Source: a virus
Virus record (IMG/VR): IMGVR_UViG_3300009183_000203
Location: 1 to 35,917 of that record
Reading direction: 5' to 3' (one strand)
DNA length: 35,917 nt
Part shown: positions 10,092 to 35,872 of the stretch, piece by piece
Numbering within the stretch: position 1 is the stretch's first letter
Layout: the number at the start of each line of letters is the position of its first letter
The notes under the pieces: generated by a model
The model's input: the letters and a program-made list of their open reading frames with translations, nothing else
Databases searched by the model: none
What the model was told of the DNA's origin: nothing
Program-made: the position numbers and the translations under genes

Positions 10092-12314
10092 ATGGCATTA
10101 ACCAGACCAAAAATAGGACAATTCAACACCGCAATTACGTCGTTGACGGATCCAATAACGGTACTCAACGGCGGAGCAACATTGGCCAACGTAGACGTTG
10201 GTTTCTTGATGAATCGTGCCAACGGATTGATCAGCAACGTAGCCCTGTATTGGAACGAGTCGGGCAACACTTTTGTAACAGCATTTACCAGCAACACCGG
10301 AGTAACAGATTCAAATATTGCAGTAACTGCCTATGCGAACATTATCACTGGCGCACTGACAGTGGTAGGTAGAGCCAACATCAACGGCAATTTAAATGTC
10401 AGCGGAACAATCACAGCTGCTTATGTTCAAAATGGTGCTACCAGTTCTTATGCAACTCAAAGAGTGTTACAGTACAATGAAACAACTGGGGCAGTTACAT
10501 ACAGCAACTATCTAGATGCAACAAGAGTATACATCACAGGATACAGCTCAGAAATACATGTCAGCCCGGTTGCGTTGGACGACACCGGCAACGGAACAGT
10601 TGGTGATCCAGTTAAAACCATTGCTCGAGCTCAAGTACTAGCAGCAGCAGCATTTGAAACAACAGGTGTTGGCGAAAGAAAAACAATCGTTTTACATCCG
10701 GGTTCTTATACTGAAGATGTAACTATCAGTACTCAGTATACTGTGCTAACCACACACGAATTGGTGGGCAAAAATACAACCTTAACTGGCAATTTGACCA
10801 TAACCAAAGGTTGTACCATTGAAGGCCTAAAGATGACCAATCTTGTTATCTCGGCAAACTCATCGGTTGGTTCAGTTGATATTATCGGTTGTACAGTATC
10901 CACAGCAACAACAAAAACATCAAGTGCATATACAGTTTTTAGAGGATGTGATTTATCTTCATCTACATTAAGTATCACTGGCACTGGCACAACAGTGATG
11001 GTTGGTGGTAATTATGGTAATGTCACTGTAAACAATGCCGCGGCTGGTGTTTTGGTCAAAGCAGTTACTACCATGGGATCAGTGGTTTTGACAGCAGGAA
11101 CGCTACAGATTTCCGATACGCTGGTTTACGCGGCCACTAATACGGCCAACGCCATAACACAAAGTGCTGGATCAGTGTTGACATTAAACAACAGTCAGAC
11201 ACTGATACCCGATCTATCAAATGTGGCAAGAAACAGTTTTGGTGGTTTTTATTCTATCTTACACTCTGTATACGACAAAGCAAACTCCACATTTGGTGGT
11301 ACATCACTGGCAGCTATTTCATACAGTCAAGTTATTAGCACTGACTCTATTAATGTCACAAGCACAACTGCATCAACATCAAATATAACCGGTGCATTGG
11401 TAGTCAAAGGCGGGGCAGGTGTTGCTGGCAACCTGTACATAGGTGGCAACATAACAGTCACTGGAAACATATTACCCAGCGCCAATGTAACCTACGATAT
11501 TGGTAGTCCTACCCAGCGTTTCCGTAGCTTGTACCTCAGTGGCAATACCATTGACCTAGCTGGTGCAACTATTAAAACTGATGCAGTATCTGGCGCTGTT
11601 GTGATCATACCAATTCCCACAGTCCAAGTTCCGAACCCAACGGCCATTGTTGTTTCTCCAGCAGGCACAATCAGCGCCATTCAAACACAAAGTGGTACTG
11701 TAGCTTCTGCCAACATTGCCGCAGTGGCCAATGCAGCAGCAGCAGCAGCACTCACAACTTTTGCCAACGTACAAACCACAGGCAATCTTGAAGTACAAGG
11801 CAATTTGAGTGTGGCCGGAACTGTGACTTTTACCAACTCTGTGGTACAAACACAAACAGAGTTGGTGTTGGGTACAGAAATAGTAGGCGGAAATTTAATA
11901 GCAAACTCGGCTACTGTATCAACAAATACCAGCACAGGTGCCCTGGTAGTAGTAGGCGGTGCCGGCATCTCGGGCAATCTCAACGTTGGTGGCAATATTT
12001 CAGCCACAAACATATTCCAGGATCGCGGCAACGACATAAACGACTGGAACACGCTGACTGTTATGGGCGTATATTTGATAAATAGAGATAGCTGGACAGG
12101 AACTAGCAATACACCGCTAAACACGTTGAATTTTACTGGACAACTAGAAGTTATAAACACAGGAAATGTGAGTATAACACAGAATTATAGACCGTACGAT
12201 AACGCCACTGGGCCCAATGTTTTTTGGACTCGTAGCAAGTATAGTACAAGTGCATGGACCACGTGGGTAAAGATAATCAACGGGTCAGAAGTGATGGATG
12301 GCGGTAGTTTTTAA
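10092..12314 (+). CDS. Tail fibre/tailspike-like protein with beta-helix-like region and pyocin-knob-like C-terminus (740 aa)
   Basis: The N-terminus 'MALTRPKIGQFNTAITSLTD' and 'VDVGFLMNRANGLIS' (residues 1-60) match a segment of the 682-aa protein. Residues about 150-370 look like a parallel beta-helix: 'VSPVALDDTGNGTVGDPVKT' and 'TIVLHPGSYTEDVTI' resemble the entry strands of pectin-lyase-fold phage spikes. Short rungs follow ('TLTGNLTITKGCTIEGLKMT', 'SVDIIGCTV', 'YTVFRGCDL'). Then come 'TGALVVKGGAGVAGNLYIGG' linkers, a 'SANVTYDIGSPTQRFRSLYL' unit, an Ala-rich stretch (about 548-565) and a second linker. Residues about 644-735 ('NDINDWNTLTVMGVYLINRD' to 'FWTRSKYSTSAWTTWVKI') resemble the pyocin-knob domain of receptor-binding proteins. 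No catalytic residues can be assigned, so polysaccharide cleavage is possible but unproven. The protein ends in DGGSF. Confidence 0.78.
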   Translation: MALTRPKIGQFNTAITSLTDPITVLNGGATLANVDVGFLMNRANGLISNVALYWNESGNTFVTAFTSNTGVTDSNIAVTAYANIITGALTVVGRANINGNLNVSGTITAAYVQNGATSSYATQRVLQYNETTGAVTYSNYLDATRVYITGYSSEIHVSPVALDDTGNGTVGDPVKTIARAQVLAAAAFETTGVGERKTIVLHPGSYTEDVTISTQYTVLTTHELVGKNTTLTGNLTITKGCTIEGLKMTNLVISANSSVGSVDIIGCTVSTATTKTSSAYTVFRGCDLSSSTLSITGTGTTVMVGGNYGNVTVNNAAAGVLVKAVTTMGSVVLTAGTLQISDTLVYAATNTANAITQSAGSVLTLNNSQTLIPDLSNVARNSFGGFYSILHSVYDKANSTFGGTSLAAISYSQVISTDSINVTSTTASTSNITGALVVKGGAGVAGNLYIGGNITVTGNILPSANVTYDIGSPTQRFRSLYLSGNTIDLAGATIKTDAVSGAVVIIPIPTVQVPNPTAIVVSPAGTISAIQTQSGTVASANIAAVANAAAAAALTTFANVQTTGNLEVQGNLSVAGTVTFTNSVVQTQTELVLGTEIVGGNLIANSATVSTNTSTGALVVVGGAGISGNLNVGGNISATNIFQDRGNDINDWNTLTVMGVYLINRDSWTGTSNTPLNTLNFTGQLEVINTGNVSITQNYRPYDNATGPNVFWTRSKYSTSAWTTWVKIINGSEVMDGGSF

Positions 12315-24083: not shown

Positions 24084-25453
24084 TAATTATCTGCTTTCGG
24101 TGTTAGTACACGACTCAGCGGTTGACGCTCATTATGCGTCACGCCGTCAGCGTCTGTGTAAGTGTTAGTATTATTTACATAACTACCACGTTGTGTTTTA
24201 TTATCTGTGCCTGGAGTTAATGAAGTTCTTACACTATCTTCTACACGAGCCCAATGACGTCCACTATAACGAAATAAACGATTTGGTAAGTAATCCAAAC
24301 GCAAGAAATATTCCCCCTCGGTTGGATTGGCAGGAAATGCAACACCGGCACCAGTGGCTAAACCATTTGGAGCAACACCATCGCCAGTTAAATAACCAGA
24401 CACCTTGCGTAATGGACTTGACACACCTGAATCCGCGGTAGGACTAGTATTGCCGGAGTTGATACTGGCATTGTCAGCAGTGATGGGAGCACCGATTGGA
24501 TCACTGCCACGTGCAGTGGTCGGCAAAGTAAAAATTGGACTGGTATCGTAACCACTTTTGGGTACGTCGATCTCGGCCTGAGTAATAATACTTTGATTGA
24601 TATCCAAGAATGTGTTGTAGGTACTTAAAATTTGTCCCACTGGAGTATCTGTGGTATCGCTGGCTGCAATATTATCCAAGATATCTTTGTACTCTTGACT
24701 GTCTACCAGCGGGTTAAGTTTAACTCTCCACAGGTGTGGCCACCAAGTGGGACTGAATCCTTCGCTTGCAAAACTGGCATCACCAACCACATAGTAACGT
24801 TTTAATGCCGCAGGCAAATCTCCGTCTAAGGCATCGTAATCTTTTAGGTGTTGTAGCTCTAGCACATCGCCGGCTATGAGCTTACGACCAATCTGATCAA
24901 CCATGTCACGCAAATGAAACACCATGAAGATTGTACCAGTTTGCAGGAACAGGCCAAATTGGCTTAGATCAAAGTCTTGATCAGCACGTTGATAGATACC
25001 ACGCATTTTATAAACATCACGATCATACTTGCGATCACGATTTTCTAACCACAGCAAGTCTTGTATGTTTTGTTCACTTTGGTTAGCGTAACTGGGTTTG
25101 GTAGCATCCGGGCCAAAGCCAACAGTTGTTCCGCTGGCCACAGCAGATGTGGTCACTGTGTTTAATGTTACTGTGGTTGCGGTTTTGCTGGCTACCTGTG
25201 CTCCAGCAGGAATGCCAGGCCCAAATGCAAAATCTTTGACATTAATTCCAGTAGTATTGGAAAAACTCAAATCAAAATCTTCAGATGCTTGTGCGGCGCT
25301 GGTGGCTTTGTTGGTGCCCTGGGTATTTACGCCCAGGTATTTGTTGACCAGGATACCCGTACCACCAATGGTAAACATTTCGGATATGCGTCTATCCATG
25401 AACTTGTAATCATTTGAGTGTTTACCATCTTGCCAAAGGCTTAAACGTGGCAT
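24083..25453 (-). CDS. Neck-associated virion structural protein of T4-like aquatic phages (456 aa)
   Basis: It begins 'MPRLSLWQDGKHSNDYKFMD' and 'RRISEMFTIGGTGILVNKYL', and continues with 'QNIQDLLWLENRDRKYDRDV', 'FDLSQFGLFLQTGTIFMVFH', 'GDVLELQHLKDYDAL', 'AALKRYYVVGDASFASEGFS' and 'WWPHLWRVKLNPLVDSQEYK'. I recognise this as a virion structural protein found beside neck genes in cyanophages and relatives. Its position between gp13 and gp15 and its 'FG...GD.....L' layout recall neck protein gp14, but I cannot confirm that it is gp14. Residues about 48-115 are an inserted beta domain ('SFSNTTGINVKDFAFGPGIP' to 'GTTVGFGP'). The C-terminal ~170 residues are low-complexity with Pro/Thr/Asn. The start has AGGA 7 bases upstream and a late promoter 22 bases upstream, both on the - strand. 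Confidence 0.72.
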   Translation of the reverse strand: MPRLSLWQDGKHSNDYKFMDRRISEMFTIGGTGILVNKYLGVNTQGTNKATSAAQASEDFDLSFSNTTGINVKDFAFGPGIPAGAQVASKTATTVTLNTVTTSAVASGTTVGFGPDATKPSYANQSEQNIQDLLWLENRDRKYDRDVYKMRGIYQRADQDFDLSQFGLFLQTGTIFMVFHLRDMVDQIGRKLIAGDVLELQHLKDYDALDGDLPAALKRYYVVGDASFASEGFSPTWWPHLWRVKLNPLVDSQEYKDILDNIAASDTTDTPVGQILSTYNTFLDINQSIITQAEIDVPKSGYDTSPIFTLPTTARGSDPIGAPITADNASINSGNTSPTADSGVSSPLRKVSGYLTGDGVAPNGLATGAGVAFPANPTEGEYFLRLDYLPNRLFRYSGRHWARVEDSVRTSLTPGTDNKTQRGSYVNNTNTYTDADGVTHNERQPLSRVLTPKADN

Positions 25454-25474
25454 ATAGAATCCTGTTAATTGTAG

Positions 25475-25482
25475 TATTTATC
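25475..25482 (-). promoter_or_regulatory. T4-type late promoter element GATAAATA (minus strand)
   Basis: Read on the - strand the sequence is GATAAATACTAC, ending 21 bases before ATG 25453. It is the only late element found for the three-gene minus operon (structural protein, gp15, Nudix). It lies five bases from the -35 box of the divergent sigma70-like promoter. Confidence 0.75.
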
Positions 25483-25487
25483 GTGGC

Positions 25488-25516
25488 TTGACCCATAAAT
25501 CCTTTTAATGTATAAT
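25488..25516 (+). promoter_or_regulatory. Sigma70-type promoter (TTGACC-17-TATAAT)
   Basis: The -35 box TTGACC (25488-25493), a 17-bp spacer and the perfect -10 box TATAAT (25511-25516) make a near-consensus host-type promoter. The expected transcription start, seven bases after the -10 box, is 25523, which is the A of the ATG chosen for the next gene. Confidence 0.85.
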
Positions 25517-25522
25517 GTTGTT

Positions 25523-25774
25523 ATGGACCCGGATATCAAGTATCGTTTGGACCAGGCTTTTTTCACTATAGTTAAATTGCCCGGACATCAAAGCACAGAT
25601 TTGAAAAAGATCTGGAAGAATTGCCATGATATACAGCGTGAAATAAGTAAAGAAGAAATTAACTGTCGCAAAGTAGGAAAAAATACTGTACAATACAAAG
25701 AACTTAATGATAAATTATTAGAAACATTGACAACACTGGAACAGTATATTGTTTTAGCCACACTATTAAACTAA
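25523..25774 (+). CDS. Unknown small charged protein (83 aa), probably leaderless mRNA
   Basis: I do not recognise the family. From ATG 25523 the protein begins 'MDPDIKYRLDQAFFTIVKLP', contains 'DLKKIWKNCHDIQREISKEE', and ends 'LLETLTTLEQYIVLATLLN'. It is largely alpha-helical by composition, Lys/Glu-rich, with two cysteines and no membrane segment. The upstream in-frame ATG at 25508 is rejected because it lies between the -35 and -10 boxes, upstream of the predicted transcript start. No Shine-Dalgarno precedes 25523, so translation would start on a leaderless message. It has a sigma70 promoter instead of a late promoter, suggesting expression early in infection, perhaps as a small regulatory or host-interacting protein. 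The gene ends 9 bases before the next start. Confidence 0.65.
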   Translation: MDPDIKYRLDQAFFTIVKLPGHQSTDLKKIWKNCHDIQREISKEEINCRKVGKNTVQYKELNDKLLETLTTLEQYIVLATLLN

Positions 25775-25783
25775 GGATTCACT

Positions 25784-26965
25784 ATGGCAAATATCAAAAT
25801 CAACGGTAAAACAAGCAAGACTAAAAAAGCAGCACCCAGAAACAGTTTATTACTTGATGAAAAGTACATAGGCGAAGAACCCAAGTGGGACACTGAACGT
25901 GCCAAGGCCATGTCGTTCGAAGAATTTGACCACTTCATGCGTAAGAGCTTGACCTATTACAATTATTTCTATACTCAAAAGGATTTAAAAAAGCACGTGG
26001 TTGCCTGGATGAAAGTGGTCAAGGACTTCGATGCCGATGAAATCCGAGCATTCGAACGTGCCAGCGACCGTACAGTAAGCATGACCACTTGCGGACTCAT
26101 CATGGCACATCGCCAAGGCATGCCTTTACAGGAACGACACATCGAGTTCATTGATGCCAACATACTTGAAAGCATCAACAGTAAAAGTGCAGAAGAAGTT
26201 GTTGAAGTTGTGGTAGAAGAAAAACCCCGAGCCCATGTTCCTACCATCCAGGACAGACTAAACGAAAAAACAGCCGACACCATCGGCGAACTAGAAGGAC
26301 ACTATGATGAATTTATTGCAAATCCCAAGTATCAGTTCAAGCCTTATGATTATCTTGTGGCCAACAATGTCCCTCAAAGTCAGTTAAGCAAGTACGAAGC
26401 AGTATATCAAGCCAGGTTCGATGAACTTAAACTGGCATTTGAACGAGCCGACGAACAGCTACAAGAAGGATACAGCCATTATAAAACCGCAGACTTCAAA
26501 CGTATATTTGCTTTTATTGATCAAATCCTAAACGACATTATTCAATATCGCGGAGTTAAAAAAGCCACCAAGAAGGTACGTGCTCCTAAATCGGTAAGCA
26601 AAGAAAAAGTAGTCAGCAAGCTCAAGTATGCCCGAGAAGACAAGGTCATGCGACTGATCAGCGTCAATCCCGCAGACATCATTGGCGCACAAGAGCTATG
26701 GGTTTATAATACCAAAACACGCAAGCTGGGCAAGTACATAGCTGACAGTTTAAAAGGACCCTTAAACGTCAAAGGAACCGGCATTATTGGCTACGATGAA
26801 CACAGATCTACGTCAAAAACACTACGTAAACCCGAGGAAAAGCTCAAGGAGTTTGCTCGTGCTACCAAAGTGGAGTTGCGTAAGTTCTTGGACAATATCA
26901 AAGCCACAGAAACCAAGCTCAACGGACGCATCAATCTAGAAACCATCTTACTTCGTGTACAGTAA
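25784..26965 (+). CDS. Conserved-type hypothetical protein (393 aa), Lys/Glu-rich
   Basis: AAGGA at 25773-25777 precedes ATG 25784. I do not recognise a named family. Residues 1-20 are a basic tail ('KINGKTSKTKKAAPR'). Residues about 25-135 are alpha-helical with aromatic pairs ('SFEEFDHFMRKSLTYYNYFY', 'DLKKHVVAWMKVV'). About 136-160 is an acidic Val/Glu linker ('EEVVEVVVEEKPR'). Residues about 170-270 are again helical ('YEAVYQARFDELKLAFERAD'). About 270-285 is a Lys-rich linker ('GVKKATKKVRAPKSVSKEKV'). The C-terminal ~105 residues form a compact basic domain ('LISVNPADIIGAQELWVYNT', 'KGTGIIGYDEHRSTSKTLRK') of a kind that might bind nucleic acid. It could be a regulatory, scaffold or packaging accessory protein; none of these is supported by a motif. 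Confidence 0.75.
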   Translation: MANIKINGKTSKTKKAAPRNSLLLDEKYIGEEPKWDTERAKAMSFEEFDHFMRKSLTYYNYFYTQKDLKKHVVAWMKVVKDFDADEIRAFERASDRTVSMTTCGLIMAHRQGMPLQERHIEFIDANILESINSKSAEEVVEVVVEEKPRAHVPTIQDRLNEKTADTIGELEGHYDEFIANPKYQFKPYDYLVANNVPQSQLSKYEAVYQARFDELKLAFERADEQLQEGYSHYKTADFKRIFAFIDQILNDIIQYRGVKKATKKVRAPKSVSKEKVVSKLKYAREDKVMRLISVNPADIIGAQELWVYNTKTRKLGKYIADSLKGPLNVKGTGIIGYDEHRSTSKTLRKPEEKLKEFARATKVELRKFLDNIKATETKLNGRINLETILLRVQ

Positions 26966-26971
26966 TAAATA
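26964..26971 (+). promoter_or_regulatory. T4-type late promoter element AATAAATA
   Basis: AATAAATA followed by CTG overlaps the stop of the 393-aa gene. Expected start is near 26977. GGAG at 26981-26984 then serves ATG 26991, so gp13 has its own late promoter. Confidence 0.75.
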
Positions 26972-26990
26972 CTGTATAACGGAGTAATCA

Positions 26991-27947
26991 ATGGCCACAC
27001 CATTTGCAGGTAACGTAACAGCTGAAGCTGGATACGACGCTAAGAACAACATAGATACAGCCAGCCTGTTCAACGCCAACACAGGTACACAGTCCGGCGC
27101 ACACATAGCTTTTCCAGGAAGTGCCACTGTAAGTCAAAGCGGCGTCACAGATCCTAACTGGGAATACGGCAGCACCACCAACAGTCTACGAGCCGCAATC
27201 ACTGATTATGTTCGTATGCGTCTAGGCGATGGCATTGTTGATGTTGAGCTAGACAAAGAACACTATGAAATGGGCATTACACAGGCCTTGATCAAGTATC
27301 GTCAAAAAGCACAGAATAGCGTAGAAGAAAGTTACTGTCATTTACAGTTGATGCCTGAAACGCAGGAATATATTTTACCTAAAGAAGTACAAACAGTCCG
27401 TGCTGTTTATCGTCGTGGTATCGGCAGCGTGACAGGTACAACTGCTAGCCAATTTGAACCGTTTGCGTCCGGATACTTGAACACATACATGCTGGTAGCA
27501 GGTCGTGTGGGAGGACTAACAAGTTACGAGCTATTTGTAGACTATCAAAAATTGGCCATGAAGATGTTTGGTGGCTTTATGAATTACACATTCAATCCCA
27601 CAACTAAAAAATTAACAGTGGTTCGTAAAATGCCGTTCCAGGGTGTTAATCCCCCAATAGATCAACAAGAAAGTGTACTGCTTTGGATGTACAATACCAA
27701 ACCAGACCAAATGATTCTCAATGACACCTATGCTTTTCCTTGGATTCAAGAGTACGCCTATAGCTTCTGCAAGCGTATTTTGGGAGAAGCACGTAGCAAG
27801 TTCAGCCAAATTGCCGGACCACAAGGTGGAGCAAGTCTAAATGGCGATGCTCTCAAACAAGAAGCCTTGGCCGAAATGGAAAAACTAGAAGAAGAATTAA
27901 AAACCTACGTAGATGGAAGTCAGCCACTAACCTGGGTAACCGGCTAA
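26991..27947 (+). CDS. gp13: Neck protein, gp13-like (318 aa)
   Basis: T4 gp13 (309 aa) builds the neck ring that closes the filled head and accepts the tail. The length here is close. After a Gly/Ala/Asn-rich N-terminal ~60 residues, the conserved core starts at 'LRAAITDYVRMRLGDGIVDV' (about 65-85) and 'HYEMGITQALIKYRQKAQNS'. 'YILPKEVQTVRAVYRRGIGS' lies around 125-145, 'YELFVDYQKLAMKMFGG' around 180-197, 'FPWIQEYAYSFCKRILGEAR' and 'KFSQIAGPQGGASLNGDALK' around 250-290. It ends with an acidic coiled helix and 'SQPLTWVTG'. These follow the neck-protein pattern of aquatic T4-like phages. It is driven by the late promoter at 26964 and is followed immediately by the sigma70-type promoter of the dNMP kinase. 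It is separated from gp15, which lies on the other strand. Confidence 0.85.
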   Translation: MATPFAGNVTAEAGYDAKNNIDTASLFNANTGTQSGAHIAFPGSATVSQSGVTDPNWEYGSTTNSLRAAITDYVRMRLGDGIVDVELDKEHYEMGITQALIKYRQKAQNSVEESYCHLQLMPETQEYILPKEVQTVRAVYRRGIGSVTGTTASQFEPFASGYLNTYMLVAGRVGGLTSYELFVDYQKLAMKMFGGFMNYTFNPTTKKLTVVRKMPFQGVNPPIDQQESVLLWMYNTKPDQMILNDTYAFPWIQEYAYSFCKRILGEARSKFSQIAGPQGGASLNGDALKQEALAEMEKLEEELKTYVDGSQPLTWVTG

Positions 27948-27948
27948 C

Positions 27949-27978
27949 TTGACACACTACGACGAAACATGTTACAAT
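27949..27978 (+). promoter_or_regulatory. Sigma70-type promoter (TTGACA-18-TACAAT)
   Basis: A perfect -35 box TTGACA (27949-27954), an 18-bp spacer and TACAAT (27973-27978) predict transcription from about 27985. This leaves an 18-base leader containing GGAG (27992-27995) before ATG 28003. It starts two bases after the gp13 stop. Confidence 0.85.
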
Positions 27979-28002
27979 GCTCCTATAACACGGAGCATTT
28001 TT

Positions 28003-28644
28003 ATGATCATCGGCGTATGTGGGTTTATTGGTAGCGGTAAAGATACCATTGCTGACTATTTGGTTGGGTTTCACGGCTATCGTAGAGACAGCTTTGCTGG
28101 CACACTCAAAGATGCTGTGGCGGCTGTGTTTGGATGGGACCGAGAGCTATTAGAAGGTCGTACTCCAGAAGCTAGAGCCTGGAGAGAACAGGTGGATGCC
28201 TGGTGGGCAAAGCGTTTAAATATGCCAAATCTTACCCCACGTTGGGTGTTGCAATACTGGGGTACTGAGGTATGTCGTCGAGCATTCCATGATGATATCT
28301 GGATTGCTGCACTAGAAGCACGTCTAAGCCGTCGTAGCGACAATACTGTCATCAGTGATGTGCGATTCCCTAATGAAATACAAAGCATACGCAACGCCGG
28401 CGGTAAAATTGTCTGGGTCAAACGCGGTATATTGCCATACTGGTATGATTCAGCAGTGGCAGCCAATCAACAGGTGCAAAGTGCTGTGGCATACTTACTG
28501 GCACAAGGTGTTCACATCAGTGAAACTGCCTGGGTAGGTACTCGATTTGATTATGAAATTGACAACAACGGCACCATTGATGAGTTGTACACAAACATTA
28601 AAAATCTGGTACTAGCGGAGCCTGCCGCCACGGCATCTGACTAA
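28003..28644 (+). CDS. gp1: Deoxynucleoside monophosphate kinase, T4 gp1-like (213 aa)
   Basis: The enzyme phosphorylates dNMPs to dNDPs with ATP in the cytoplasm, feeding phage DNA synthesis. The P-loop is G7-FIGSG-K13-D14-T15 right after a hydrophobic first strand ('MIIGVCGFIG'). 'FAGTLKDAVAAVFGWDRELL' is the lid-side helix pair, 'PRWVLQYWGTEVCRRAFHDD' and 'VISDVRFPNEIQSIRNAGGK' are the family hallmarks, and 'DYEIDNNGTIDELY' is the usual C-terminal strand. The start is ATG 28003 with GGAG 8 bases upstream; a longer frame from TTG 27949 would begin on the -35 box and add 18 unrelated residues. The 3' end overlaps the convergent HNH gene by 47 bases. Its sigma70-type promoter suggests expression independent of the late genes around it. 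Confidence 0.92.
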   Translation: MIIGVCGFIGSGKDTIADYLVGFHGYRRDSFAGTLKDAVAAVFGWDRELLEGRTPEARAWREQVDAWWAKRLNMPNLTPRWVLQYWGTEVCRRAFHDDIWIAALEARLSRRSDNTVISDVRFPNEIQSIRNAGGKIVWVKRGILPYWYDSAVAANQQVQSAVAYLLAQGVHISETAWVGTRFDYEIDNNGTIDELYTNIKNLVLAEPAATASD

Positions 28645-28945
28645 CGGCTAATTCAATGGTGCAATTGGCACACACAGTTTTCAAATTGAACGTGTTGGTA
28701 TTTTTTAAATTGCCATCCACATGATACACAAACAACTGTTTTATATGTTTGGCTTTGAAGTTGCATAGTTCGCAACGTTCTTTTTTCTTATAACCACTCT
28801 GGGCCCAAGCTGGCGGTTTGGGTTTTAATTTTTTCCCTATACGTAAACAAGCGTCGCATTGCCGACGATAGTAGGTGTGTTCACCACGATAGCAATTGAT
28901 AGCTACGGGTCTGGCATTACAAGTCGGGCATAACGGTCTGGTCAT
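28598..28945 (-). CDS. HNH-type zinc-ribbon protein, putative endonuclease (115 aa)
   Basis: Four CxxC pairs are visible: C6/C9 and C30/C33 form one likely zinc ribbon; C58/C61 and C92/C95 form a second that brackets 'FVYHVDGNLKNTNTFNLKTV' (72-91), an HNH-like beta-beta-alpha core with H75, D77, N79 and N87. The stretch 'YYRRQCDACLRIGKKLKPKP' supplies a basic DNA-contact segment. Small HNH proteins of this form are frequent in aquatic T4-like phages and may be free-standing nucleases or packaging-linked enzymes; the role here is not proven. It is on the strand opposite to its neighbours and its 3' end overlaps the end of the dNMP kinase gene by 47 bases. Upstream on the - strand lies TTAAATAC, only a weak match to the late promoter. 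Confidence 0.8.
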   Translation of the reverse strand: MTRPLCPTCNARPVAINCYRGEHTYYRRQCDACLRIGKKLKPKPPAWAQSGYKKKERCELCNFKAKHIKQLFVYHVDGNLKNTNTFNLKTVCANCTIELAVSQMPWRQAPLVPDF

Positions 28946-28985
28946 ACTGTATTTAACCGCAAACGCATTAACAAACCTTAAATAA

Positions 28986-29001
28986 GGGCACCATTGTGCC
29001 C
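28986..29001. repeat. Short perfect hairpin between HNH gene and gp18
   Basis: GGGCAC (28986-28991), loop CATT, GTGCCC (28996-29001). On the + strand it is followed by AAAAAA, not T's, and on the - strand only by TTATTTAA. It is upstream of both flanking genes, so it is not a convincing terminator for either. It may mark an RNA-processing or old boundary site. Confidence 0.5.
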
Positions 29002-29018
29002 AAAAAATGCCACTTCGT

Positions 29019-29026
29019 AATAAATA
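29019..29026 (+). promoter_or_regulatory. T4-type late promoter element AATAAATA
   Basis: AATAAATA lies 31 bases before ATG 29058; AAAGGA at 29044-29049 is the ribosome-binding site. This drives the sheath gene, the most abundant late tail product. Confidence 0.75.
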
Positions 29027-29057
29027 ACTTTAACATGATATATAAAGGATTATAACC

Positions 29058-32000
29058 ATGGCACTAGTTTCCCCAGGAATTCAAATTTCCATTAACGATC
29101 AGAGTCAATACGTATCTAACGCAGTTGGATCAGTACCACTAGTGGTATTAGCAACAGCACAAGATAAGACTTATAACGGTGCAATAGCATCGGGTACATC
29201 TGCAGCCAATGCAGGCAAATTGCAGAGCTTTACCAGTCAGCGTGACTTGGTGACAGCAATGGGCACACCCACATTCCGACTAAGTTCTGCGGGTACACCA
29301 ATACACGCTGGCGAACTAAACGAATACGGATTAATGACAGCTTATAGTGCCTTGGGCCTAGGCAATCAGTTATATGCTATTCGTGCCGACATTGACCTGG
29401 ATCAATTGGTCGGTACCAGTGTGCGTCCAAGCAACACACCTGCTGATGGAACATACTGGTTAGACTCAGTTAATACAGAATGGGGTATTTACAGTTTGAA
29501 TCGCACTGATGTCGATTTTGACCACGTTACTCCTTTAGTGATCACAGATTCTACTCAAGTTGAAAACGACAATGCTTTTGCTTACAATGTACCAAAACCC
29601 AAACAATCTGTTGGTGCAATTGGTACCTACGCCATTGTAGCAGTAGACACCGATGGTACAAACCCTAATGTATTGCGTCTATGGAAAAAGACTGGAACCG
29701 ATTCAGTTGCTACAGGAACTGGTGGACCCGGATCAAATGTCTGGGTACAAGTAGGATCTACTGCTTGGCAGTTGTCAACACCGGCTGTAACCGGCACTAT
29801 TGCTACCCCGGGCGTTACAATCGGACAAACATTGGTTCTTAACGGAAGCACCGTTACTGCAACAGGTATAACATCTACCACCTTGGCCAGCGATATTAAT
29901 ACAGCGGCTATCACAGGTGTTAAAGCGGCTGCAGTTGGCGGTAAACTTACATTATTCTGTACAAGTGCTGCCACTAGCGGCAGAGTCACAGTGGCCAGCG
30001 GAACAATGAACGTAAGTACAGTACTGGGAATTACTCCTGGTACTTATTTTGCACCATACTTGTTCTACGGTGATTATGCTGAAACTCCCAGTGGTGGTTG
30101 GTTTACCACAGACTCCCAACCACGTCCAACCGGCAGTATCTGGTGGAAATTGGGATCTACCGGCGCTGGTCTAAATCCTATAATGAAAAAATACAGTTCA
30201 GCCACAGGTACTTTCCAAGCATTAAATGTGCCAGCGTTTTTAAACACCGACAATGCTGTTTATGGTCTTGATCCTATAGGCGGTGGCGTAAACATTGCCG
30301 AAGGTCAAACCATTGTAACTTATAGTGTAAATGATACCACCAGCAACGGTCTAAGATTTTACAATCACAGAGCTCGTAATGCCTACGAACCCAACGGAGA
30401 ATCGGTTGCCTTTACAGGAACTCCTACAGCATTTACCGCAGGTAACAGCTTCAGTATTGACTACACCACACCTGGCGTTGAAGAAGTTGGTGCACCTATA
30501 ACAATCACCTTATCAGGCACAACAACTGCTTCATTTGTGACTGACATTTTATCTGCCAACATTCCTTATGTGACAGCCAGCCTTGAAAGCAACGGCACAA
30601 TTAAAATTACTCATCAAACTGGTGGTCAATTGATACTGTTAGATGTTAGTGGAACTCCATTGACTGCTGCTGGATTTGCAGCAGATGCAGATGGAGAAGC
30701 TACAAAAGGGTCTGGATATATACAAAATACCGTGACCGGCGCTTTTGTAATTTCTGCGTTCAATAATTTGACACATGAAAGTCAACTTGAAATAACCGAT
30801 TCAGCTCCATATGCTGCTCCAGCCAATGGCACATACTGGTATTACAGTAGTGCTGCTGATGTTGACATCATGATCAACAACAATGGTTGGAAAGGCTATC
30901 AAAACGTAAGCAGTGACAGTCGTGGTTACAACCTGGGCAACACAGATCCAGCCGGCGTTATTGTTACTGCCACAGAACCACTCACACAAAGCGATGCCAG
31001 TGCATTGGTAGCAGGCGATTTGTGGTTAGATACTAGTGATCTAATTAATTATCCTAAACTATATCGCTACACAGGCACAGCCTGGGCTGCTATTAACACA
31101 TCAGATCAAACAACCAGCAATGGTATTGTGTTTGCTGATGCACGTTGGGACACAGATGGCACCAAAGATCCGATCGTTGATGATTTGCCAGCAATCACCA
31201 GTTTGTTAACCAGTAACTATCTTGATCTAGATGCTCCAGACTATCGCTTATATCCGCGTGGCGCACTATTGTTTAACACACGTCGCTCAGGCTACAATGT
31301 CAAACAGTACAGATCAAACTACTACAATGATGTAAGTTTCCCAGATGTTGGTGCTAACAGTATTGGCTTACCAACCAGTTTGCCAGCAGAAGCTGGTGCA
31401 TGGGTTAGCTCCAGTGGATTGAACACAGATGGATCAATGAAAGCTGGTACAGCTGCACAACGAGCCATTGTTGTTGCTGCTATGTCTAGTGCTATTGACA
31501 GCAATTTAGAAGTTCGCGAAGACCTGTATCAATTTAACTTGTTGGTAGCTCCTGGTTACCCAGAGTTGATTGACAATTTAGTAACATTGAACTCAGATCG
31601 TGGCGACACAGGTTTTGTTATTGGCGACACACCAATGACATTGGCTGCTACAAGCACAGCAATTAATAATTGGAACAGCAACACAGACGGTAATGGTCTA
31701 GCAACAGCAAGTCCATACCTGGCTGTTTACTATCCAAGCGGTGTAACAACCGACTTGACTGGTAACACCGTAGCAGTTCCTGCAAGTTATTCAGTGTTAC
31801 GCACATTCTTGTACAGTGACAACGTCAGCTATCCTTGGTTTGCTCCAGCTGGAACACATCGTGGTCTAGTAAGCAACATTCAAGATGTTGGTTATGTTGA
31901 TGCCAACACAGGCGCATGGACTCACAACTCAATTGGACAAGGTCTACGTGACAGTTTGTATACCATGAACATCAACCCAATCACACAGTTACCAGGAGTT

Positions 32001-32384
32001 GGTATTGTGGTATGGGGTCAAGAGACCAAGTCGGGTACAAGTACAGCACGTAATCGTGTAAACGTGGTTCGTTTAGAAAACTATCTAAGAACCATATTTA
32101 AATCCATATCCAATGGTTACTTGTTTGAGCCAAACGATCAAGTCACACGTAAGTCAATCTCAACTCAAATTGAAAGTGCATTAAACGACATTTTGAGCAA
32201 ACGTGGTATTTACGATTTCTTGGTGGTATGTGATAGCAGTAATAACACTTCTAGCACCATTGCTAACAACCAACTGTATGTTGATGTTGCGATTGAGCCA
32301 GCACGTGATGTTGAGTTTATTTACATTCCTATCGCGTTGTATAACCCAGGTGCATTAGCAAGCCTAGGTACATCGTCAACTTAA
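29058..32384 (+). CDS. gp18: Contractile tail sheath protein, gp18-like, enlarged (1108 aa)
   Basis: The N-terminus 'MALVSPGIQISINDQSQYVS' and the C-terminal ~260 residues are the conserved sheath core: 'FAPAGTHRGLVSNIQDVGYV', 'QGLRDSLYTMNINPITQLPG', 'VGIVVWGQETKSGTSTARNR', 'VNVVRLENYLRTIFKSISNG', 'KSISTQIESALNDILSKRGI', ending 'VEFIYIPIALYNPG'. T4 gp18 has 659 residues; the extra ~450 lie in the middle. There, four units with a 'G(D/T/S).(W/Y)W...' core recur near residues 128 ('ADGTYWLDS'), 350 ('TGSIWWKLG'), 587 ('ANGTYWYYS') and 655 ('AGDLWLDTS...YRYTGTAW'), resembling the tryptophan units of the fibre proteins. They probably decorate the outer surface of the sheath. A late promoter and a strong Shine-Dalgarno precede it. 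Confidence 0.92.
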   Translation: MALVSPGIQISINDQSQYVSNAVGSVPLVVLATAQDKTYNGAIASGTSAANAGKLQSFTSQRDLVTAMGTPTFRLSSAGTPIHAGELNEYGLMTAYSALGLGNQLYAIRADIDLDQLVGTSVRPSNTPADGTYWLDSVNTEWGIYSLNRTDVDFDHVTPLVITDSTQVENDNAFAYNVPKPKQSVGAIGTYAIVAVDTDGTNPNVLRLWKKTGTDSVATGTGGPGSNVWVQVGSTAWQLSTPAVTGTIATPGVTIGQTLVLNGSTVTATGITSTTLASDINTAAITGVKAAAVGGKLTLFCTSAATSGRVTVASGTMNVSTVLGITPGTYFAPYLFYGDYAETPSGGWFTTDSQPRPTGSIWWKLGSTGAGLNPIMKKYSSATGTFQALNVPAFLNTDNAVYGLDPIGGGVNIAEGQTIVTYSVNDTTSNGLRFYNHRARNAYEPNGESVAFTGTPTAFTAGNSFSIDYTTPGVEEVGAPITITLSGTTTASFVTDILSANIPYVTASLESNGTIKITHQTGGQLILLDVSGTPLTAAGFAADADGEATKGSGYIQNTVTGAFVISAFNNLTHESQLEITDSAPYAAPANGTYWYYSSAADVDIMINNNGWKGYQNVSSDSRGYNLGNTDPAGVIVTATEPLTQSDASALVAGDLWLDTSDLINYPKLYRYTGTAWAAINTSDQTTSNGIVFADARWDTDGTKDPIVDDLPAITSLLTSNYLDLDAPDYRLYPRGALLFNTRRSGYNVKQYRSNYYNDVSFPDVGANSIGLPTSLPAEAGAWVSSSGLNTDGSMKAGTAAQRAIVVAAMSSAIDSNLEVREDLYQFNLLVAPGYPELIDNLVTLNSDRGDTGFVIGDTPMTLAATSTAINNWNSNTDGNGLATASPYLAVYYPSGVTTDLTGNTVAVPASYSVLRTFLYSDNVSYPWFAPAGTHRGLVSNIQDVGYVDANTGAWTHNSIGQGLRDSLYTMNINPITQLPGVGIVVWGQETKSGTSTARNRVNVVRLENYLRTIFKSISNGYLFEPNDQVTRKSISTQIESALNDILSKRGIYDFLVVCDSSNNTSSTIANNQLYVDVAIEPARDVEFIYIPIALYNPGALASLGTSST

Positions 32385-32391
32385 GAATATA

Positions 32392-32399
32392 GATAAATA
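32392..32399 (+). promoter_or_regulatory. T4-type late promoter element GATAAATA
   Basis: GATAAATA starts 8 bases after the gp18 stop. The expected start is near 32405, with AGGAG at 32407-32411 before ATG 32418. It gives the tube gene its own late promoter. Confidence 0.75.
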
Positions 32400-32417
32400 A
32401 GAGTATAGGAGAATAAC

Positions 32418-33029
32418 ATGGCCGTAGCAAGTTTAAGCAAATTTACAGTTCCACTATCAAATGACCAAAGTGCAAGTAGCCAAGGTCTTTTGATGCCCAA
32501 GTTAAAGTATCGCTTCCGTGCGAGCTTTTATAATCTTGGTGTAACTAACCCAACCACAGAACTAACCAAGCAAGTAGTGGATATCAAGCGTCCAAACGTA
32601 ACATTTGCACCTGTTACTATTGATGTTTATAACAGCAAAGTATACTTGCAAGGCAAGCCAGAGTGGCAAGAAACCACAATCAACTTCCGTGATGATGCAA
32701 CTGGTCAAGTCAGTAAACTTATTGGTGAACAGATCCAGAAGCAGTTTGACTTTATGGAACAAAGCTCTGCACCAAGTGGTGTTGATTACAAGTTCCGTAT
32801 GGAATTCGACATCCTAGACGGTGGCAATGGTCAAACAACTCCGGTGATTCTTGAGCAGTGGGACCTAGAAGGTTGTTTCCTAAGTTCAGTTGACTATGGC
32901 GACATGGCTTATAACAGTAATGATCCTGTGCAAATTGCAGTCAACATCCGCTTTGACAATGCTGTACAAACAATCGGTGGCGGTGTTGGTACTACTGTTA
33001 CTTTCCCAAGAGGTGACAGCGTTAACTAA
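32418..33029 (+). CDS. gp19: Tail tube protein, gp19-like (203 aa)
   Basis: The tube protein stacks as hexamers inside the sheath and forms the DNA channel. T4 gp19 has 163 residues. The family pattern is visible: 'LMPKLKYRFRASFYNLGV' (about 25-42), 'LTKQVVDIKRPNVTFAPVTI' (48-67), 'GKPEWQETTINFRDDATGQV' (79-98), then 'QWDLEGCFLSSVDYGDMAYN' (143-162) and 'DPVQIAVNIRFDNAVQ' (163-178). It follows gp18 as in T4. A strong terminator (33049-33077) ends the unit. Confidence 0.93.
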   Translation: MAVASLSKFTVPLSNDQSASSQGLLMPKLKYRFRASFYNLGVTNPTTELTKQVVDIKRPNVTFAPVTIDVYNSKVYLQGKPEWQETTINFRDDATGQVSKLIGEQIQKQFDFMEQSSAPSGVDYKFRMEFDILDGGNGQTTPVILEQWDLEGCFLSSVDYGDMAYNSNDPVQIAVNIRFDNAVQTIGGGVGTTVTFPRGDSVN

Positions 33030-33048
33030 TTGATAAATTTTATCAACT

Positions 33049-33077
33049 AACCCGAGCTTAAAAACCTCGGGTTTTTT
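33049..33077 (+). terminator. Intrinsic terminator after the tail tube gene
   Basis: Perfect 8-bp stem AACCCGAG (33049-33056) / CTCGGGTT (33066-33073) with a 9-base loop and a run of six T's (33072-33077). A second AT-only palindrome TTGATAAATTTTATCAA lies just upstream (about 33030-33046). Confidence 0.92.
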
Positions 33078-33081
33078 ATTG

Positions 33082-33089
33082 GATAAATA
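33082..33089 (+). promoter_or_regulatory. T4-type late promoter element GATAAATA, start codon at predicted +1
   Basis: GATAAATA lies directly after the terminator and ends five bases before ATG 33095. With the octamer at -13 to -6, transcription would start exactly on the A of the start codon. No Shine-Dalgarno sequence lies between. Confidence 0.75.
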
Positions 33090-33094
33090 TTAGT

Positions 33095-34570
33095 ATGAGC
33101 ATTAATAAACATTTATCATCGTCTCAAGTTAATTACCCAAATACAGTTACAAATCCTCGCGGGCAAATGTATGACTACCGCCATGCGGCAAGAATATTCA
33201 CCGACGACAATTTCCGACTAAGTCCCAAATATGGATTTTTGTTTTATGTGGAATTTGATTTTAATCCATTGATTACAAATATCTCCGATCAAACCTTGCA
33301 ATACAAAAGCATGGGTAGTGGCAATGCTCCAGCAAGAGAATTAGGCATGTTGGTCAAAAGTGCCACGCTACCAAAGTTTACTATCGACACCAAAACACAC
33401 AATGCTTACAATCGTAAAAACATTGTGCAAAATAGCATCAAGTATGATCCTGTGCAAATATCATTCCACGATGACCAAAGCGACAATGTAAGAAATTTCT
33501 GGTATGACTACTACAGTTTCTTTTTTCGTGACCCTGACTATGCTGACGCCACCTATAATACTCCACACAAGTATGCCAGTCGTCCCAGCTTTGATTGGGG
33601 TTATAGTCCAAGACGTCCCACAGTTGGTACCAACCTAAATGGGCAACAGGCCTATCAATACATACAAGCTATAAGAATTTACAGCTTGTATCAAAAGAAT
33701 TTTAGTGAATACCAATTGGTCAATCCCACTATCACTGCGTTCAAACACGGTGATCATGTGAATGGCGAAACCAGTTTGTTAAGTCACGAAATGACCATAC
33801 AGTATGAAACAGTAAAATATCTAACAGGCTATACCACTGCCAACAACGCCGGCGGATTTATTGATTTGCACTATGACAAGATGCCAAGTCCTATTGCTCC
33901 AAGAGACGGAACAGACCTGGTAGACAATGGCCAAGGTGGATATAACCGTGCGCCAGATCAAATCACTGACCTGGCAGGCATTAGTCCACTATACACCGAT
34001 GCAACCGCACCCATAAATTTTGGTGCCGGTACAACATCAGCACAACCCAGTGTGTTTGGAAGATTGTTTGGTACTGGCACATCAATTTCTGCAGGTGTGG
34101 GCGGAGTCAATGCCGGTGGATTCAGTGTGCCAAGTCTTGGCAGTTTAACACAGGGCATTACCAGTGCCGCACAAATACAGCAACAGATACAAGCACAAGC
34201 GTCTAATATCGTGGGCGGCGTAGTAAGCTCCGCGGCCAATGGACTGATTGGTGGATTGGCTGCTGGACTTGGGCCCAATGGCGGAGCCACTATTAATCTA
34301 ATTGCGTCAGCTATACAAAACCCTCAAGCGGCTCTGGCCACAGTGACCAACATGGCAGCCACCTATGCTATGCAACAGGTTGGATCCTATGTGACTGAGC
34401 TAACACAGCCATTAATTGATCAAGCATCAGGATTTATCAAGGACCAAGTTGGAAGTGTAGTCGGTGATATTTCAATAGCGTTTGGTGATTTCGCGAGAGA
34501 CATTGCTAACGAATTTAGTGCATCATTCTCCACCGACGCTTTGGCTGAACGTGTGACCAATCTCATATGA
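33095..34570 (+). CDS. Tail tube/baseplate-like structural protein (491 aa)
   Basis: Residues about 35-270 have the features of a tube-type protein: 'LSPKYGFLFYVEFDFNPLIT' (41-60), 'ELGMLVKSATLPKFTIDTKT' (82-101), 'NSIKYDPVQISFHDDQSDNV' (112-131), 'RNFWYDYYSFFFRDPDYADA' (132-151), 'HEMTIQYETVKYLTGYT' (about 231-247). The 'sequence of strands followed by an FHDD...FW.YY' motif is found in tail proteins of aquatic T4-like phages. It may be a paralogue of gp19, like T4 gp48 or gp54, which cap and initiate the tube; this is not certain. The C-terminal ~190 residues are Gly/Ala/Gln-rich and partly coiled ('QIQQQIQAQASNIVGGVV', 'VTELTQPLIDQASGFIKDQV'). The gene has a late promoter but no leader, and its stop overlaps the next start (ATGA). 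Confidence 0.65.
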   Translation: MSINKHLSSSQVNYPNTVTNPRGQMYDYRHAARIFTDDNFRLSPKYGFLFYVEFDFNPLITNISDQTLQYKSMGSGNAPARELGMLVKSATLPKFTIDTKTHNAYNRKNIVQNSIKYDPVQISFHDDQSDNVRNFWYDYYSFFFRDPDYADATYNTPHKYASRPSFDWGYSPRRPTVGTNLNGQQAYQYIQAIRIYSLYQKNFSEYQLVNPTITAFKHGDHVNGETSLLSHEMTIQYETVKYLTGYTTANNAGGFIDLHYDKMPSPIAPRDGTDLVDNGQGGYNRAPDQITDLAGISPLYTDATAPINFGAGTTSAQPSVFGRLFGTGTSISAGVGGVNAGGFSVPSLGSLTQGITSAAQIQQQIQAQASNIVGGVVSSAANGLIGGLAAGLGPNGGATINLIASAIQNPQAALATVTNMAATYAMQQVGSYVTELTQPLIDQASGFIKDQVGSVVGDISIAFGDFARDIANEFSASFSTDALAERVTNLI

Positions 34571-34950
34571 ACAATCAAATCTCTACCGCAACTAATTTAG
34601 CACCACCAGACACTTCGGTTGCTGTCAATGACGCTAGAAAATATTTTAATAATTTCTATTCTAAAGAATTTGCATCAGGCCCAGCCGATGATGCTATCGT
34701 GGCATTCTTTGAAAAACGCACACAGAACAAAACTTCAGCTAAAAATTTAGCTGCGGTGGTGTTGTACACAGCACAAGCACAAGACTTGGATCCAATGATG
34801 GTGCTGAGCGAGTTTCAAAAATTACCAGCTGGTGAACTCAACAACTATCTTGCTGCATTCTTAAACGCCAATCGAGCACCTACTAGTACCATTGGCGTCA
34901 AACGAACAAACAATACTAATCCCCTGGTTTCTCGCACAGTATTGATATGA
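34567..34950 (+). CDS. Small conserved structural-region protein (127 aa)
   Basis: It overlaps the preceding stop as ATGA and the next start in the same way, so it is translationally coupled on both sides. The core 'ARKYFNNFYSKEFASGPADD' (23-42), 'AIVAFFEKRTQNKTSAKNLA' (43-62), 'VVLYTAQAQDLDPMMVLSEF' (64-83) and 'KLPAGELNNYLAAFLNANRA' (85-104) is mostly helical. I recall this pattern from small proteins located beside tail genes in aquatic T4-like phages, where no function is assigned. No membrane segment or catalytic residue is evident. Its tight coupling between a tail protein and gp4 suggests a role in tail or head completion, which is inference. Confidence 0.72.
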   Translation: MNNQISTATNLAPPDTSVAVNDARKYFNNFYSKEFASGPADDAIVAFFEKRTQNKTSAKNLAAVVLYTAQAQDLDPMMVLSEFQKLPAGELNNYLAAFLNANRAPTSTIGVKRTNNTNPLVSRTVLI

Positions 34951-35381
34951 GCAAATACTCGCAAGGCAAATTTCAAATACAGAACCCTGCCAAGTATGTG
35001 GGCAACAAAACACCTACCTATAGATCCAGCTGGGAATTTGTTTTTATGCAATTTTGCGACAACAATCCCAGCATAATCAACTGGGCTAGCGAGGCAGTAC
35101 ATATCAACTATCGCAATCCGTTGACAGGTAAAAATACCATTTATGTTCCAGACTTTTTGATTACCTATCAAGATGCTGGCGGTGCCCAACGTGCTGAATT
35201 GGTCGAAGTCAAACCCAAAAAAGAAACCACGCTAGAAGGCGCCAAAAACATACGTGATCAAGCCAGTGCCATATTGAACATGGCCAAATGGGAGGCTGCT
35301 CGTGCTTGGGCTCGAGCACACGGAATGACCTTTAGAGTTGTCACCGAAGATATGATTTTCCACCAAGGCCGTAGCAAATAA
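34947..35381 (+). CDS. gp4: Head completion protein, gp4-like nuclease fold (144 aa)
   Basis: T4 gp4 (150 aa) acts at a late stage of head completion before tail joining. The sequence shows 'MSKYSQGKFQIQNPAKYVGN' and 'YRSSWEFVFMQFCDNNPSII' (25-44), then 'INWASEAVHINYRNPLTGK', 'YVPDFLITY' (66-74) and 'ELVEVKPKKE' (84-93). These give a PD-(D/E)xK-type set: E30, D69, E87 and K89. All are in the expected order, so nuclease activity is plausible. The length is close to T4 gp4. The start overlaps the previous stop as ATGA. The stop codon TAA (35379-35381) lies inside the late promoter of the next gene. Confidence 0.88.
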   Translation: MSKYSQGKFQIQNPAKYVGNKTPTYRSSWEFVFMQFCDNNPSIINWASEAVHINYRNPLTGKNTIYVPDFLITYQDAGGAQRAELVEVKPKKETTLEGAKNIRDQASAILNMAKWEAARAWARAHGMTFRVVTEDMIFHQGRSK

Positions 35382-35384
35382 ATA
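35377..35384 (+). promoter_or_regulatory. T4-type late promoter element AATAAATA, start codon at predicted +1
   Basis: AATAAATA overlaps the gp4 stop and ends five bases before ATG 35390, the same geometry as at 33082. The predicted start is the A of the start codon. No Shine-Dalgarno sequence precedes the gene. Confidence 0.7.
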
Positions 35385-35389
35385 TTGCT

Positions 35390-35872
35390 ATGACTAAAAA
35401 ATTAGAAGAGCTGTTTAACCTACCATCCACGGATGCTACTGCCGAAGAAGCCGAGCAGATAATTGAAGAAAACCGCGACATAATCACCGAAGTTAATCTT
35501 GCTATAGATAAGATTGATGCTGCACTACCCACAGTACACAATTTAGACACCGGTGATACCGAGCTGGATGAATTGGCACAGTTGGCACAGAGCAAAGCTG
35601 AAGATCTGATAGATCTGGGCATGAATGTAGAGCCACGCTTTTCGGGTGTTATCTTACAAACAGCTGGTGTAATGTTGGGACACGCTATCACAGCCAAAAC
35701 TGCCAAGCTAGATAAAAAGTTAAAAATGGTACAGTTACAGTTGGCCAAAGCCAAGCTGGATCACCAGATCAAAAAAGATGCCAAAGATCCAGTGGAAGCA
35801 GCCATAGACGGGCAAGGAGTTGTGCTGGATCGCAACGAATTGCTAAAACAAATATTAAACAAAAAAGTATAA
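35390..35872 (+). CDS. gp16: Probable terminase small subunit, gp16-like (160 aa)
   Basis: T4 gp16 (164 aa) is the small terminase that regulates packaging by the large subunit gp17. The length and layout agree: an N-terminal 'MTKKLEELFNLPSTDATAEE' acidic segment, then a long central helical region (residues about 55-130: 'DELAQLAQSKAEDLIDLGMN', 'PRFSGVILQTAGVMLGHAIT', 'KTAKLDKKLKMVQLQLAKAK') suited to the coiled-coil oligomerisation core. The short C-terminal tail is 'VVLDRNELLKQILNKKV'. Sequence identity to T4 gp16 is low by eye, so the call leans on layout and on its place after gp4. It has a late promoter without a leader, and carries the promoter of the next gene across its stop codon. 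Confidence 0.6.
   Translation: MTKKLEELFNLPSTDATAEEAEQIIEENRDIITEVNLAIDKIDAALPTVHNLDTGDTELDELAQLAQSKAEDLIDLGMNVEPRFSGVILQTAGVMLGHAITAKTAKLDKKLKMVQLQLAKAKLDHQIKKDAKDPVEAAIDGQGVVLDRNELLKQILNKKV

Follow-up and report, generated by a model that had tools for sequence, protein, structure and literature searches.

Predicted leaderless genes behind host-type and late promoters in a group of T4-like jumbo phages

Promoters and start codons in the window

The stretch of DNA considered here (35,917 nucleotides in full, referred to as the window) represents part of the genome of a T4-like myovirus. No match to cultured phages was found at the DNA level, and the 357-kb contig G001 encodes the key genes of the window at 100% protein identity. 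Three genes, starting at 25523, 33095 and 35390, lie directly behind a promoter (Table 1). Searches of PHROGs and Pfam with the product of the first gave no match, the second encodes a second tail-tube-like protein (phrog_13438/4542), and for the third one cultured homologue carries the annotation small terminase.

Table 1. Features around the three predicted leaderless starts and two contrasting late promoters of the window
Feature	Positions	Strand	Remarks
Sigma70-type promoter, TTGACC-17 nt-TATAAT	25488..25516	+	Predicted +1 at 25523; promoter and short spacing kept in almost every one of 22 non-redundant relatives
83-aa ORF, function unknown	25523..25774	+	Predicted leaderless, presumably early
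Contrast: octamer AATAAATA, 19 nt, SD-led ATG 26991	26964..26991	+	
Contrast: octamer GATAAATA, 18 nt, SD-led ATG 32418	32392..32418	+	
Intrinsic terminator that follows the tail tube gene, directly upstream of the late octamer	33049..33077	+	-10.9 kcal/mol, z -3.4
Late octamer GATAAATA, T4-type	33082..33089	+	Predicted +1 at 33095
Tail-tube-like gene, 491 aa	33095..34570	+	Predicted leaderless
Late octamer AATAAATA, T4-type	35377..35384	+	Predicted +1 at 35390; overlaps the preceding gene's stop codon
160-aa gene, phrog_16202	35390..35872	+	Predicted leaderless

It had been proposed from the window alone that transcription of these three genes begins on the A of the start codon, and the promoter coordinates of this original prediction proved exact to the base. 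The sigma70-type promoter of 25523, which ranks among the best two of the 25 sigma70-like sites that the scanned stretch contains, consists of TTGACC (25488-25493) and TATAAT (25511-25516), the latter ending 6 nt before the ATG. Both octamers end 5 nt before the ATG, and each departs once, at position 1, from the T4 late consensus. The standard spacings of -13 to -6 for the octamer and -12 to -7 for the -10 hexamer were assumed. Since the T4 late octamer is numbered from -13 (review PMC2988020), 33082+13=33095 and 35377+13=35390, and with TATAAT at -12 to -7 the corresponding sum is 25511+12=25523. This arithmetic predicts a +1 on the A of all three start codons, although no mapped 5' ends are available. 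A gene for a gp55-type late sigma factor is encoded in G001 (matching phrog_12791 at E 2.5e-81 and phrog_234 at E 6e-23) as well as in the large relatives G003 and G004, which supports the interpretation of NATAAATA as a late promoter.

An in-frame ATG at 25508 was considered as an alternative start of the first gene and rejected. It runs into the sequence immediately preceding the -10 box, and relatives whose spacer is 5 nt long (e.g. L025) have it out of frame, which makes 25523 the better start. The region 25453-25523 is divergent: the gene that starts at 25453 and runs leftward has a minus-strand late octamer (25475-25481), and 25523 has the sigma70 promoter. In many relatives, too, an octamer-like TATTTATCG/TATTTATGG in reverse orientation is present ahead of the sigma70 promoter. 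Another GATAAATA octamer (12077-12084) lies inside the gene 10092-12314, with the following gene starting some 245 nt further on, and no leaderless start codon adjoins it.

None of the three predicted messages contains a Shine-Dalgarno (SD) sequence, as had been claimed. The anti-SD pairing energy over the 20 nt upstream is +0.9 kcal/mol for 25523, -3.1 kcal/mol for 33095 and +0.6 kcal/mol for 35390. The value for 33095 stems from the GGG of the terminator, which is not part of the message since it lies upstream of the predicted +1. Most of the remaining genes of the window score -3 to -9 kcal/mol; the original prediction had stated that nearly all of them have an SD. The remaining clearly SD-less starts belong to overlapping genes, namely 34567, 34947 (the head-closure gene) and, on the minus strand, 24083; the first two sit in 4-nt ATGA overlaps with the previous gene and are therefore probably coupled to it. 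Several other octamers of the window are found 17-32 nt from the ATG (18770, 26991, 29058, 32418 and 35893), followed in most cases by an SD.

Conservation of the arrangement in related phages

A relative of the 33095 product, 48-100% identical, was found in 80 viral contigs, 51 of which are non-redundant at the start region. TAAATA-N4-6-ATG is present in all but one of these 51, with exactly 5 nt in 45. Compared with the protein of the window, the start codon of the homologues shifts by between -112 and +20 codons while the spacing is kept, and this is the strongest single argument that the predicted promoter and the ATG form one unit. The sole exception, L072, has kept the promoter and has no ATG there; its ATG is found 18 nt past the octamer core and is accompanied by an AAGGA SD.

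At the 35390 homologues, TAAATA-N4/5-ATG was observed in 36 of 40 non-redundant loci. In the four exceptions the gene no longer adjoins the promoter, as an insert lies between them. In two cases this is a homing endonuclease gene (L058:5433-6101, HNH-type, and L030:5003-5599, phrog_314), which takes over the leaderless position (GATAAATA-N5-ATG and AATAAATA-N4-ATG); L026 has a short remnant ORF (12236-12303) in which the leaderless ATG is retained, and L083 an unclassified insert (near 3659). The main frame of all four opens with ATT, without an ATG, behind AAGGAG or TTGGAG. Thus, where the leaderless start of 33095 or 35390 has been lost, an SD-like sequence is present instead. The ATT is the apparent start of the displaced homologue, and in L058 and L030 the stop codon of the endonuclease gene overlaps that gene.

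The sigma70-type arrangement of 25523, i.e. TTGAC, a TATAAT-like box and an ATG 5-8 nt further on, is found in nearly all of the 22 non-redundant loci, down to about 30% identity; one of them, L086, has a longer spacer, and none has an SD. The comparison across relatives shows that the arrangement is under selection.

It might be argued that the three genes are translated from longer upstream messages, mainly by start-stop coupling or SD-independent initiation, and that the promoters close to the ATG are incidental. The situation at 35390 is compatible with this, as the preceding gene has its stop codon 8 nt from the ATG without an intervening terminator, and read-through with start-stop coupling could indeed be a second translation route for this gene. 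As an explanation for all three, however, we consider it very improbable. The terminator that had been proposed directly upstream of 33095 is real (stem 33049-33073 followed by a U run), and a T run not more than 40 nt from the ATG exists in 49 of the 51 non-redundant relatives. In addition, 25523 has a promoter of its own and is located between divergent genes, and the octamer spacing of 35390 is kept in those 36 loci even though the position of the upstream stop codon varies among relatives.

A genome-wide class with two promoter types

Distances from motif to ATG were plotted for four group members, G001, G003, G004 and G005, using simple ORF gene calls. Scrambled motifs served as control, because ATAAATA reads the same backwards and a reversed motif is uninformative. 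The octamer core occurs at 4-6 nt in front of 19, 25, 12 and 13 genes, respectively, where 2.9, 2.5, 1.4 and 1.2 are expected (p~3e-10 for G001). The distances are bimodal, with this sharp peak, a valley at 9-15 nt and a broad second peak at 16-30 nt. TATAAT at exactly 6 nt was counted 7, 14, 3 and 2 times against an expectation of 0.76, 0.69, 0.14 and 0.24, the excess being clear in the two largest genomes. The two promoter types have two different spacings, each with the value that puts +1 on the A. When all 6-mers were scanned, TAAATA at 5 nt (G001, G004, G005) and TATAAT at 6 nt (G003) were among the strongest positioned motifs, beside SD motifs.

The motifs are short, single sites prove nothing, and such sequences could precede ATGs randomly in AT-rich DNA. 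Chance is nevertheless statistically ruled out as a source of the pattern, and we give it practically no credence: neither the octamer nor the TATAAT peak was found in the cultured controls T4, Syn9, PA5oct, PBECO4 or 400 kb of Phosso, among which T4, PA5oct and PBECO4 are richer in AT than the genomes studied here, and the spacing is conserved in the orthologues of dozens of diverged contigs. In PA5oct, Phosso and PBECO4 the homologous genes do not show the arrangement, and in most cases they carry SD leaders.

The genes of the first peak also differ in their starts. In G001 the mean SD energy is about -0.3 kcal/mol for the class at 4-7 nt compared to about -4.3 kcal/mol for that at 16-30 nt, and the other genomes are similar. 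Start codons at the leaderless position are ATG in 102 cases and TTG or GTG in 6; the ATG is followed by A at +4 in 59 of 102 and preceded by T at -1 in 67 of 102. Leaderless and SD-led genes coexist behind the octamer (19 at 4-6 nt vs 43 at 16-30 nt in G001). Members of the class include a virion structural protein, a baseplate wedge subunit, a Clp-type AAA+ protein, a CHASE2-cyclase and a GT17-like protein and, behind sigma70 promoters, a DnaB-like helicase, DnaJ, an exoribonuclease and a UvdE-like nuclease; for the large terminase the distance is 7 nt. Several genes are predicted leaderless in all four genomes, and conservation between genomes is weaker for the sigma70-type cases than for the late ones. 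The cyclase of G001 (L094:4517-6565, minus strand) is a CHASE2-adenylate/guanylate cyclase of 683 aa with the octamer 4 nt before the ATG.

Around a fifth to a third of the sites have a spacing of 4 or 6-7 nt instead of 5 nt, so that some leaders may be 1-2 nt long or the start site may drift. An alternative is that transcription begins 2-5 nt upstream of the ATG (e.g. on the A or G of TTAGT), with a very short leader and SD-independent initiation that needs an AUG near the 5' end. Spacings of 4, 6 and 7 nt do occur, the bS21 gene of G001 having 7 nt. However, the peak of either promoter type is at the one spacing for which +1 coincides with the A, the numbering of the T4 octamer begins at -13 (PMC2988020), and an A at +1 after a T is favoured, so that we regard a regular leader of this kind as improbable.

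Conserved spacing, absence of an SD, near-exclusive use of ATG and genome-wide recurrence thus support the leaderless reading of all three genes, the 5' ends being unmapped. Beyond what the original prediction had seen, the data support a leaderless class that is genome-wide and lineage-specific, and we hold it to be highly probable, as far as sequence comparison can tell, that the three genes belong to such a systematic class in a group of T4-like jumbo phages. The best reading is that the class comprises genes without a leader or with one of 1-2 nt, transcribed from two unrelated kinds of promoter, host-type and phage late, beside SD-led genes. It appears to include roughly 20-40 predicted genes per large genome.

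Translation initiation and relation to known systems

According to the leaderless reading, RNA polymerase would start on the A of the ATG, as inferred from the promoter spacing, and the mRNA would open with 5'-AUG and without an SD. The ribosome, probably in the form of a 70S-fMet-tRNA complex, would recognise this terminal AUG. The position of the 5' end, initiation on 70S ribosomes and whatever part bS21 or an initiator tRNA may play are inferred. The late genes 33095 and 35390 would be driven by the phage gp55-type sigma factor acting on NATAAATA octamers, whereas 25523 would be under the control of host-type sigma70 and is for this reason presumably early. Other genes of the phage would have an SD in a leader at least about 11 nt long.

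Some of the phages encode translation parts of their own. A C1:A72 mismatch is typical of initiator tRNAs, and CAT-anticodon tRNAs with this mismatch are present in three of the four large relatives, namely G001, G003 and G004 (L098:15541-15615, minus strand; L121:19021-19097, minus strand; L191:12864-12937, plus strand). Genes for bS21 were identified in G001 (L095:834-1082, minus strand) and G003 (L118:5191-5421, minus strand), with a late octamer 7 nt and 5 nt before the ATG, respectively, and without an SD. A C-terminal domain of IF3 was not found in the five phage contigs searched. A larger amount of initiator tRNA strongly enhances leaderless and only slightly canonical translation (review PMC9031893), and bS21 together with the initiator-type tRNA of some phages may favour leaderless messages. 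One could go further and imagine a two-track programme, in which the phage's own initiator-type tRNA (C1:A72) and bS21 bias host ribosomes to 5'-AUG messages, which are rare in the host, so that the leaderless set is preferred during infection; this remains speculative and is rather unlikely at present. As a sufficient cause bS21 was rejected, as PA5oct encodes bS21 and has no leaderless class. In G003, ARAGORN additionally reports a tRNA with a CTA anticodon, labelled tRNA-Pyl (L115:16114-16189, minus strand), which is possibly amber-suppressor-like.

Hints to the host are conflicting. Similarity of bS21 points mostly to gammaproteobacterial MAGs (45-58%) in a second genome scan, a first scan having given no match, whereas the tmRNA points to Betaproteobacteria. 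This tmRNA, an unusual gene for a phage, is encoded in G001 (L092:12012-12400, minus strand; RF01850, 144.5 bits) as a permuted two-piece molecule of the betaproteobacterial type with the tag ANDEQFALAA.

To our knowledge well-studied phages seldom make leaderless messages, and most work on leaderless translation in proteobacteria concerns a few model genes, e.g. lambda cI. The closest functional precedent is the Thermus phage phiYS40, likewise a large phage making many leaderless messages, where many middle and late messages are leaderless and the phage is reported to raise IF2 and to lower IF3 (PMC3594737). The phages described here differ from it by the use of T4-type late octamers and sigma70 and by SD-led late genes in the same genome; with both octamer classes coexisting, it cannot be said of them that most middle and late messages are leaderless. 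An anatomical precedent is provided by the bacterial TA-led (TANNNT) leaderless genes (PMC3160421), in which, as here, a -10 box lies about 12 nt upstream of the start without an SD. Here the arrangement is found in a phage, along with a second, phage-specific promoter with a spacing of its own (5 nt after the octamer). Lambda cI, to which PMC3160421 and PMC9031893 refer, also has an mRNA that begins at the AUG and is translated in an SD-using host, yet this is a single gene as opposed to the predicted class in each large genome here. T4 late promoters (PMC2988020) share the 8-bp TATAAATA-like element and the gp55-family sigma gene, but in our group the octamer often begins with G, A or C, and many octamers lie 4-6 nt from the ATG, while T4 has essentially none (1 vs 1.3 expected).

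Finally, bS21-encoding freshwater phages are likewise large, and their bS21 is believed to function at late stages of infection, when translation is initiated (PMC9723584). They are predicted to infect Bacteroidetes, while the present group uses an SD for many genes and has a betaproteobacterial-type tmRNA in one genome; a text search of that paper gave no mention of leaders or promoters. A search of the open-access literature, which leaves out subscription papers, brought up no description of leaderless late genes of the T4 type. T4-type late promoters in this role, sigma70 used in parallel and the intermixture of SD-led genes appear to be new, as does the depth of the comparative evidence.

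The finding has a bearing on annotation, since gene finders based on the SD may mis-call such starts. The predicted leaderless arrangement is conserved over dozens of relatives in a widespread phage group, and these natural variants, which keep or lose leaderless starts, make the rules of 5'-AUG recognition directly testable. The co-occurrence of bS21 with an initiator-type tRNA provides a concrete hypothesis for the purpose of phage-encoded translation parts.
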